From Anaerolineales bacterium (lineage in GTDB: Bacteria > Chloroflexota > Anaerolineae > Anaerolineales > Villigracilaceae), in NCBI GenBank assembly GCA_020060235.1, contig JAGVAO010000260.1, forward strand, positions 1 to 55,290: a stretch of 55,290 bases of DNA. Reading direction: 5' to 3'. How positions within the stretch are numbered: the stretch's first letter is position 1; each line of letters begins with the position of its first letter. Position numbers and translations under genes: made by a program. This document shows, in pieces, positions 19,100-39,794 of the stretch. The notes beneath the pieces were generated by a model. The model saw only the letters and a list, made by a program, of their open reading frames with translations, did not search any database and was not told the origin of the DNA.

Positions 19100-19187
19100 A
19101 AATTCGTCTAATTCGTAAAATTCGCCTGCACTGGCTCCAGGCCAGGGTTGCAAAAAACAAAATTCGCCCAATTCGCACAATTCGTGG
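19100..19187 (+). repeat. two direct copies of a 27-28-nt AATTCG element
   Basis: Copies at 19100-19126 and 19160-19187. Each consists of three 9-base units of the form N-AATTCG-NN (AAATTCGTC TAATTCGTA AAATTCGCC in the first copy; the second ends CAATTCGTGG). They lie between the MaoC gene and the GxxExxY gene, with 33 unrelated bases between the copies. A facing pair follows the GxxExxY gene and another copy lies at 37707. Confidence 0.85.
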
Positions 19188-19202
19188 CAAAAAAATCATC
19201 CC

Positions 19203-19574
19203 ATGCCCGAAATCATCCACAAAGACCTCTCCTACGCCATCGTCGGTGCCGCCATGGAAGTGCACAAAATCCTCGGCCCCGGCTTCCTCGAGTCGGTTTA
19301 TGAATCGGCCCTGGCCTATGAGCTTGACTTGCGCGGAATCCCTTATGAACGCCAGAAACGCCTGCCCGTCTCTTACAAGGACAAATTCATCGGCGAGTAT
19401 GTTGCTGATATGGTTGTGGACAACAAAATTATTCTTGAACTTAAGGCTGTCTCTGCTATTGTTCCCGCCCATGAAGCTCAGGCGCATCATTATGTGAAGG
19501 CAACGGGCCTTAAACTGGCAATTATCCTGAATTTTGGAGCCGAGTCTCTGCAACGAAAACGTATCGCCCGCTAA
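19203..19574 (+). CDS. GxxExxY protein (PD-(D/E)XK nuclease-like)
   Basis: 123 residues, the normal length of the GxxExxY family (TIGR04256). The naming motif is GFLESVY in the segment ILGPGFLESVYESALAYEL. A nuclease-like core follows with VADMVVDNKIILELKA, where Asp, Glu and Lys sit in the D-(ExK) arrangement of PD-(D/E)XK enzymes. The function is not established, though the fold suggests DNA or RNA cleavage. It is wrapped by four copies of the AATTCG element, two on the left and a facing pair on the right, and is unrelated to its polysaccharide neighbours. This suggests it arrived as a mobile or repeat-associated cassette. Confidence 0.88.
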   Translation: MPEIIHKDLSYAIVGAAMEVHKILGPGFLESVYESALAYELDLRGIPYERQKRLPVSYKDKFIGEYVADMVVDNKIILELKAVSAIVPAHEAQAHHYVKATGLKLAIILNFGAESLQRKRIAR

Positions 19575-19580
19575 AAACCG

Positions 19581-19641
19581 CCACGAATTGGACGAATTTC
19601 ACGAAGCCTTAAAAAATTCGTCTAATTCGTGCAATTCGTGG
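19581..19641. repeat. head-to-head pair of the AATTCG element (hairpin)
   Basis: An inverted copy at 19581-19608 (CCACGAATTG GACGAATTT CACGAAGCC) and a direct copy at 19614-19641 (AAATTCGTC TAATTCGTG CAATTCGTGG) face each other across 5 bases. They could form a long hairpin between the GxxExxY gene and wzt, 28 bases before the wzt start. The outer unit of the inverted copy has AA changed to GC. Confidence 0.85.
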
Positions 19642-19668
19642 CCGGAATTTGTGGCAAGAACTAAAAAT

Positions 19669-36543: not shown

Positions 36544-37716
36544 ATGAACCTGCTCGTCATCTCGCACAAAGAAACCTGGCCCGACCCCGCCGCCCCGCTG
36601 GGCGTTTCCACGGTGGGCGGGTTTGCCTTCCAGATGGCCGCCATTGCCCCGCTTTTTCATCAAACCCGCCTGGTGCTGACCCAGCCCCCCGAACCTGCGC
36701 CCGGCGGGCTGATTCCCTTCGCCCCGCTCTATGACCGCATCATCACCCTGCCCACCCCGGCGGGTGGACGCTGGCACAAATTGCGTCTCACTCCCTGGTT
36801 CCTGCGCCACCTGCCGCTTTTATGGCGCGAAATCGCCCGCGCCGATGCCATCCACACCCCCGTCCCTGGCGATGTTGGCTCGCTGGGCCTTGTCCTGGCC
36901 CTGATCCAACGCAAACCGCTCTTTGTGCGCCACTGCGGCACCTGGGGCGAGCCGGTTACCATCAGCGATAAGATTCTGCTCTGGCTGCTGGAGCGTATCG
37001 CGGGCGGACGCAATGTCGTTCTCGCCACTGGCGGGGCCGAAACTCCCCCCTCGGCCAAAAACCCCAACATCCACTGGATTTTCTCTACGTCCCTGGCCCA
37101 ATCCGAACTCGATTCAATCCCCCCCGCCGCCCCCTGGGATGCCCGCTCGCCCCTGCGCCTGGTCACCGTCGGGCGCCTCGCCCCCGGCAAAAATATGGAA
37201 ACCATCCTCGAAGCCCTGCCCGCCATTCGCCAAAAAATCCCCAACCTGCACCTCGACATCCTCGGCGAAGGCGAAGCCCGCTCCTCGCTCGAATCCCAAG
37301 CCGCCGCCCTCGGTCTGCGGTCTGCGGTCACTTTTCACGGCAACGTCAGCCATGCCCGCGTGCTCGAAATTCTCTCGCAATCGCACCTGTTCGTTTTTCC
37401 CACCCGCACCAAAGAAGGCTTCCCCAAAGCCGTGCTCGAAGCCCTGGCCTGCGGCTTACCTGTGATCGCCACCCGCGTCTCGGTTATCCCGCAGTTGCTC
37501 AAAAACGGCGCTGGCCTGTTGTTGGAAGATACCTCCGCCCCGGCGGTGGCCGCGGCCATTTTGCAAATCACCTCCAACCCGGCGGGCATGGCCCACATGG
37601 GACGCCAGTCCCGCCAGGCCGCCCGGGGCTACACCCTCGAAGCCTGGGGCCAATCCATCGGCGTCCACCTCGAAAAAGCCTGGGGCCAGCCTCTGCGTGA
37701 AACAAAAAATTCGTAA
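36544..37716 (+). CDS. glycosyltransferase family 4 (GT-B)
   Basis: 390 residues. It has the GT4 donor domain with RLVTVGRLAPGKNMETILEAL, HGNVSHARVLEIL and VFPTRTKEGFPKAVLEALACGLPVIAT (the E-x7-E motif). The N-terminal acceptor domain opens MNLLVISHKETWPDPAAPLG. The last codons (Lys-Asn-Ser-stop) fall inside a 28-nt AATTCG repeat copy at 37707-37734, so the repeat supplies the stop codon. The natural C-terminus may have been altered by its insertion. Donor unknown. Confidence 0.9.
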   Translation: MNLLVISHKETWPDPAAPLGVSTVGGFAFQMAAIAPLFHQTRLVLTQPPEPAPGGLIPFAPLYDRIITLPTPAGGRWHKLRLTPWFLRHLPLLWREIARADAIHTPVPGDVGSLGLVLALIQRKPLFVRHCGTWGEPVTISDKILLWLLERIAGGRNVVLATGGAETPPSAKNPNIHWIFSTSLAQSELDSIPPAAPWDARSPLRLVTVGRLAPGKNMETILEALPAIRQKIPNLHLDILGEGEARSSLESQAAALGLRSAVTFHGNVSHARVLEILSQSHLFVFPTRTKEGFPKAVLEALACGLPVIATRVSVIPQLLKNGAGLLLEDTSAPAVAAAILQITSNPAGMAHMGRQSRQAARGYTLEAWGQSIGVHLEKAWGQPLRETKNS

Positions 37717-37734
37717 AATTCGCCAAATTCGTGG
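37707..37734 (+). repeat. fourth direct copy of the 28-nt AATTCG element
   Basis: Three 9-base units AAATTCGTA, AAATTCGCC and AAATTCGTGG lie end to end, matching the copies around the GxxExxY gene 18 kb away. The TAA at 37714-37716 within it ends the upstream glycosyltransferase. It separates that gene from the deacetylase. Confidence 0.85.
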
Positions 37735-39776: not shown

Positions 39777-39794
39777 ACCGCCTGCTAAAATCCT

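Follow-up and report, generated by a model that had tools for sequence, protein, structure and literature searches.

Does a short repeat that stands several times around a small nuclease-like gene in an Anaerolineales genome belong to that gene, and do the two move together? The window, the whole 55,290-nt stretch of contig JAGVAO010000260.1 (assembly GCA_020060235.1) analysed here, carries such a gene at 19203-19574 on the plus strand. A preliminary description, made from the letters alone, had read gene and repeats as a small mobile or repeat-propagating unit.

A minimal PD-(D/E)XK nuclease-like gene and its arrays

The gene encodes a protein of 123 amino acids that had been described as a GxxExxY, PD-(D/E)XK nuclease-like protein, and profile searches confirmed this identity, with 146.6 bits against TIGR04256 (curated cut-off 35, E 3.6e-43) and 141.1 bits against PF13366 (cut-off 22, E 2.5e-41); PDDEXK_3 was the sole domain found by Pfam. 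The RecB/Cas4-like PD-(D/E)XK signature consists of a D...E-x-K triad and a Q-xxx-Y motif, and both are present in the family: D69, E79 and K81 are invariant in 185/185 homologues, Q93 is kept in 183/185 and Y97 in 180/185. We take these motifs to assign the window protein to the RecB/Cas4 type. An AlphaFold2 model built from 25 sequences (pLDDT 92.9) gave one Foldseek match below 0.001, to 4ic1 (E 8.3e-4), and the nearest solved folds were SSO0001 (a Cas4), LHK exonuclease, a Cas4 of Pyrobaculum and lambda exonuclease. In Cas4 proper, four cysteines hold an Fe-S cluster; the translated window protein contains none, and thus would form no Cas4-type Fe-S cluster and is not a Cas4 in the strict sense. 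By profile search, the adjoining genes encode an acyl-CoA dehydrogenase, a MaoC-like dehydratase and an ABC/Wzt-like protein, none of them related to the GxxExxY gene, which is as foreign to its neighbours as had been supposed.

All four repeat copies of the preliminary description were recovered. Two plus-strand arrays in direct orientation (19100-19126 and 19160-19187), each of three AATTCG units with a period of 9, lie left of the gene, and a minus-strand arm (19581-19608) and a plus-strand arm (19614-19641) stand head to head on its right. Perfect AATTCGnnn x3 arrays occupy 19101-19124, 19161-19184 and 19615-19638, the last within the plus-strand arm; in the fourth copy (minus strand, 19581-19607) the first unit is degenerate, reading CTTCGTG instead of ATTCGTG. 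The exact pattern matched four times in the window, at the three perfect arrays and at a stray one (37708-37731) that is missing from the preliminary description, whereas 100 shuffles that preserved dinucleotides gave 0.00 matches on average. When no motif was imposed and three units of period 8-10 were sought with at least 6/7 identical columns, the scan returned the three perfect arrays, the stray array and one unrelated stretch at 39794. The right-hand pair forms a complete head-to-head palindrome (19580-19642), the type found elsewhere as a gene-less element, and folds as single-stranded DNA with -23.1 kcal/mol (z -9.0). ORF 36544-37716 takes its stop codon, and hence its C-terminus, from the stray single array (37706-37734, plus strand), 18 kb off.

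Arrays of the same design flank GxxExxY genes across phyla

The same genome holds six PF13366 genes, namely the window gene (locus L009) and five others, and six perfect AATTCG x3 arrays, three at the window gene, one stray and two elsewhere. Each of the other five genes carries arrays of the same design, on both sides at L008, L011 and L012, on the left only at L010 and on the right only at L007, which is close to the end of its contig. Their units are of the CTTGGCG, CTTTGCG, TTCCGTG, AATTCGTG and CTCTGTG types, four of the five unlike the window's.

The survey was extended to 80 loci from relatives (86 loci and 91 gene matches with the genome's own six) and to a named set of 80 loci picked by protein alone, which spans Chloroflexi, Bacteroidetes, Planctomycetes, Verrucomicrobia, proteobacteria, cyanobacteria and methanogenic archaea, among others. 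After matches below 270 nt were dropped, 185 of 197 gene matches were kept; one genome stands in two collections, L202 (Candidatus Oscillochloris fontis) being L266 of G049, and the gene common to both would put the phylum of the window as Chloroflexota. Among the loci listed, the usual order is upstream gene stop, inverted arm, gene, outward arm and next start. Three-unit arrays with at least 6/7 identical columns were present in 50/84 upstream and 52/83 downstream flanks of the relatives and in 48/79 and 44/76 of the named genomes, so that overall 58-63% of 200-nt flanks hold three 7-mers with a period of about 9, compared with 8/348 (2.3%) and 14/320 (4.4%) control windows of the same loci. 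A de novo search for triples, which imposed no letters at the search step, found the motif pointing outward in 147 of 357 flanks, inward in 22, another motif in 49 and none in 139; in control windows, triples appeared in 14/555. Arrays are absent from 17 of the 185 genes and confined to one side in 41. Open frames of about 550 amino acids with an N-terminal GxxExxY domain were seen at L279, L284 and L285, flanked by ATCCGTT/ATCCGCT-like units, another type.

Left and right arms of the same element correspond as inverted copies, with median scores of 16.2 and 16.5 in the two sets versus 8.0 and 9.5 for swapped partners; in direct orientation, own pairs scored just 9.0 and 8.0. The own partner had a median rank of 2 of 84 and 3 of 76, coming first in 34/84 and 25/76 cases and within the top 5% in 64/84 and 39/76. 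An ordinary repeat lying near a nuclease gene by accident is ruled out by the shuffles, the control windows and these arm swaps, and by the genome counts below; nothing was found in its favour, and its probability is negligible.

Pairing beside other GxxExxY genes was the check that the preliminary description had proposed, and the pairing recurs in the own genome, in relatives and in other phyla. Its 28-nt repeat of three 9-nt units survives as a three-unit build, but not as a single fixed element: the unit differs by element, some arms being quite different (AATCAAG-like in L106, L107 and L104), and one 28-nt repeat common to all GxxExxY genes is ruled out. The window's own layout, with two direct arrays on the left and a full palindrome on the right, is atypical among these elements.

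Arm class and protein clade

Across 110 elements with good arms (621 units), unit positions 1, 3 and 6 had 4.3%, 3.5% and 6.0% of letters in the minority within their element, compared with 23.5% at position 4; positions 2, 5 and 7 were preset by the search, and that they are constant therefore carries no weight. On a protein tree of the 110 of 185 genes with an arm score of at least 4, position 1 (A/C) required 3 changes versus 18.6 when shuffled, position 3 required 13 versus 36.2 and position 6 required 24 versus 34.5; position 4, variable within elements, also has tree signal (19 versus 30.9). For the 51 named-set members, signal was found at position 3 (5 changes versus 10.1, 0/300 shuffles) and position 6 (11 versus 15.5, 6/300) but not at position 4 (9 versus 10.1, 67/300), position 1 being nearly constant. 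These comparisons indicate that arm class follows protein clade, with a conserved design and an element-specific unit; since the arms are linked to the gene, simple co-inheritance may account for the tracking. Of 23 arrays that lie over 700 nt away from the gene, 16 shared the class of the gene's arms (shuffled mean 6.7, maximum 14 in 2000), although these 23 come from 12 loci and the effective number is therefore smaller.

Mismatches of class were also found. In G143, the genome of L174 (arms CTCTGTG), 8/10 arrays are of the CTT class, and G020 has 11 CTT-class, 12 CTC-class and one A-type array beside two genes with CTC- and A-type arms. Within genus g62, the resident gene as predictor of solo type gave a mixed outcome, the predicted shift of copies from ATTCG to ATCTG holding in G075 (173:124) and failing in G104 (47:17). 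Such mismatches count against a strict one-gene-one-repeat rule. At one g62 site, the gene of G067 and G128 has ATTCGTG arms, whereas that of G075 and G104 has ATCTGTG arms and, in G104, an in-frame stop; this is only a lead, because in-place divergence is also possible.

Gene-less palindromes across genomes

A survey of 101 genomes of the phylum found the gene in 24 and the strict array pattern in 29. The pattern occurred in 21/24 gene-bearing genomes, the other three having no match at all, versus 8/77 gene-less ones (Fisher p 2.5e-12, with genomes taken as independent and kinship uncorrected). In total, 2096 arrays matched the pattern versus 21 for the reversed pattern, 11 of the latter in G118, where the reversed control exceeds the pattern itself (2). 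The highest counts were 489 (G067), 484 (G128) and 459 (G075), and arrays were present in 17/22 genomes reached via the named loci. Only 44 of the 2096 arrays lie in the 77 gene-less genomes, and G122 and G083 account for 37 of these; the gene is present in their congeners G006 and G112. The orphan arrays, together with the class mismatches, suggest that palindromes outlive the gene, that further GxxExxY genes went unseen or that other enzymes move the palindromes.

In one alternative, the palindromes are MITE- or REP-like repeats that owe their movement to another enzyme, and GxxExxY is cargo kept by selection between the arms, for example for repair or defence. The class mismatches would fit it, as would the great excess of gene-less copies over genes in some genomes, the strong purifying selection on the protein reported below and the fact that some copies ride in another MITE. 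Against it, the class of linked and of distant arrays alike goes with that of the protein, and gene-less genomes hold just the 44 arrays noted above, mostly in two genomes with gene-bearing congeners. We consider this alternative distinctly unlikely.

In G053, 7/15 fetched copies lie, by inspection, inside an unrelated MITE, so that amplification in this genome is ruled out as proof of mobility. The MITE-like repeat has GGCTCTT ends and appears to have captured and multiplied a gene-less palindrome (L357, L359, L360, L361, L365, L366 and L368); several G053 contigs stop in or near it.

Three palindromes were computed to fold strongly as DNA. This would also suit a role at the RNA level, in which the palindromes are transcript hairpins for termination or stability within operons and the nuclease processes hairpins, including those of its own gene. 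Among the 77 elements with both arms complete, 63 have their left arm no more than 100 nt from the end of an ORF (same strand, at least 80 codons), and for 33 of those 63 the distance is no more than 10 nt, which again favours such a role. The nearest folds of the protein are mainly those of DNA nucleases, however, and RNA processing leaves unexplained why arms and gene recur together in different surroundings (next section). A search of five loci against Rfam, which is neutral here, returned no family at gathering score, and a known RNA family was accordingly set aside for these loci. Overall, we regard an RNA-level role as very unlikely.

Arms and gene in different surroundings

The proteins of L106, L107 and L104, from the genus of the window, the same family and another family of the order, respectively, are 93-98% identical. 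Their main DNA matches span 486, 443 and 509 columns out of 6.3 kb and correspond to arms plus gene; the full match list contains shorter matches within the same range and none more than 500 nt from the gene. The right flanks are not wholly unrelated, since the ORFs that follow L106 and L107 on that side match at 70% over 23 N-terminal residues. With dN of 0.015-0.043 and dS of 1.0-2.7, dN/dS is about 0.02, which indicates strong purifying selection on the GxxExxY protein. L142 and L144 share 625 columns around the gene, and array copies farther out match too; L144 begins 133 nt before the gene, so that the left boundary is out of view and the right end alone is visible. L207 and L177 share 415 columns. 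Among the matches listed, L113/L108, L205/L188, L150/L276, L263/L258 and others have long common flanks and are same-site relatives. The same ends in different surroundings, as expected of a transposable element, are therefore seen for L106/L107/L104 and, on the right side only, for L142/L144. From these alignments, arms and gene appear to travel between genomes as one unit.

Carriage as phage cargo was rejected: 0/25 candidate stretches in viral contigs were confirmed, and the phage records contained no match to the window protein. Plasmid records yielded eight with distant GxxExxY homologues.

Occupied and empty sites were identified by inspection at two junctions, both other than the window's MaoC-wzt junction. 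At lepA-rlmB within one genus, the gene is present in G000 and G002 and absent from G001 and G004, and a relic may remain in G004; a gene-less palindrome follows lepA in G019, G012 and G010. In this comparison, the lepA end was located in 27/30 loci, and the downstream genes differ outside the genus. Similar post-lepA gaps of the same genome group contain, at L329 and L340, a different intergenic palindrome of the CTTCGACTACG / CTGAGCGGA type. Between the glycine riboswitch and gcvH, 19 of 30 loci had gcvH in view, of which two carry the gene, one a palindrome and 16 neither; the gene was found in G000 and G005, and also in G053, and the gene-less palindrome in G040. The occupied and empty sites of both junctions are too diverged for a target-site duplication to be read. 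A CTTGGCG-armed gene lies between the riboswitch and gcvH at L008, L068 and L270, in three genomes, and may by its position be riboswitch-controlled.

These observations bear out a small mobile unit as far as sites vary among relatives and arms plus gene occur in different surroundings; the window copy itself, with its atypical layout, is a less regular example. They also bear on homing, in which an endonuclease would cut an already present gene-less palindrome at its centre and the gene would be copied in by repair, the palindromes spreading otherwise. In favour of homing, the nuclease gene is a lone one, its arms share their units with the palindromes and, by inspection, it sits at the place that the loop takes in a gene-less palindrome. 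It requires, however, that palindromes were already in place, and the DNA common to L106, L107 and L104 includes the arms although the surroundings differ. We consider homing unlikely.

Proposed mechanism

Taken together, we propose with modest confidence that each GxxExxY gene is probably the coding portion of a very small mobile element, whose nuclease would recognise its own arms and mobilise both gene-bearing and gene-less palindromes. The element would consist of an inverted arm of three 7-mer units with a period of about 9, the gene and an outward arm, the arms being the putative terminal recognition sequences of that element's own nuclease; the non-autonomous form of the element would be the gene-less head-to-head palindromes that have such arms. 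In this pathway, the RecB/Cas4-like PD-(D/E)XK nuclease would bind the three units, possibly when these are extruded into a hairpin or cruciform, and cut at or near the palindrome, followed by host repair or replication that would place the arm-bounded DNA into intergenic gaps. The proposal is based on sequence, namely the anatomy across phyla, the matching of arm to arm, the tracking of clades, the variable sites, the recurrence of nearly identical arms plus gene in unlike places and the purifying selection.

More tentatively, and with somewhat less than even confidence, these elements may form a self-moving class that spans bacteria and archaea, with a minimal RecB/Cas4-type nuclease as the sole enzyme and a tripled 7-mer arm as the sequence that this enzyme reads. 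The arm code, with unit positions 1, 3 and 6 fixed within an element and position 4 free, would have diversified alongside the protein; the gene-less palindromes would make up a REP/MITE-like family that reaches hundreds of arrays in some genomes.

The proposal offers a testable function for a protein family that NCBI names by motif alone, and a likely origin for short intergenic hairpin repeats in environmental bacteria and archaea. Should arm-bounded DNA be moved by the nuclease alone, this would be a mobile element without a known transposase, and the many natural protein-arm pairs would make its DNA-recognition code directly readable.

Comparison with known systems

The arrangement had been thought undescribed, and no description of the gene-repeat association was found in the literature searched, subscription papers and preprints lying outside that scope. 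There, the passages naming GxxExxY say nothing on repeats, and TIGR04256 and PDDEXK_3 are not mentioned. One match to a repeat string is a primer located at a Bacteroides fragilis invertible promoter, upstream of BF2782, and the passage on this primer does not treat it as a repeat (PMC3090145); it carries CTCTGTG-type arm sequence, so an array may adjoin that promoter. Another match is a fish barcode (PMC8438044).

The proposed elements resemble MITEs and insertion sequences in their inverted ends, intergenic insertion and gene-less derivatives, but have no known transposase and measure about 450-600 bp with one nuclease gene of about 120 amino acids. With RecB, Cas4 and lambda-exonuclease nucleases they share the predicted fold, the D-E-K triad and Q-xxx-Y; they differ in being a minimal 123-aa domain without cysteine, encoded by a gene with its own repeats. 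I-Ssp6803I is a homing endonuclease of the PD-(D/E)XK fold, and endonucleases of this type are likewise lone nuclease genes for which spread by cutting is possible; the GxxExxY gene, in contrast, is not in an intron or intein here, and has terminal arms and abundant gene-less copies.

The closest parallel is with REP/RAYT systems (REPtrons, REPINs) and TIRtrons, in which one gene is likewise flanked by palindromic or inverted short repeats, with dispersed gene-less copies and several types. RAYTs are tyrosine transposases of the IS200/IS605 type that carry an HUH domain (PMC3733652; PMC2817692). The GxxExxY genes, class mismatches apart, are flanked by genome-dispersed repeats as RAYT genes are. 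Their enzyme differs, PDDEXK_3 alone being found and no HUH/Y1 transposase domain, and so do the arms, which consist of three 7-mers with a period of about 9 and rarely show the RAYT-type GTAG tag (GTAG/CTAC in or within 10 nt of the right arm in 7/87). By analogy, the best explanation may be that GxxExxY elements work like REP/RAYT systems with an unrelated enzyme.
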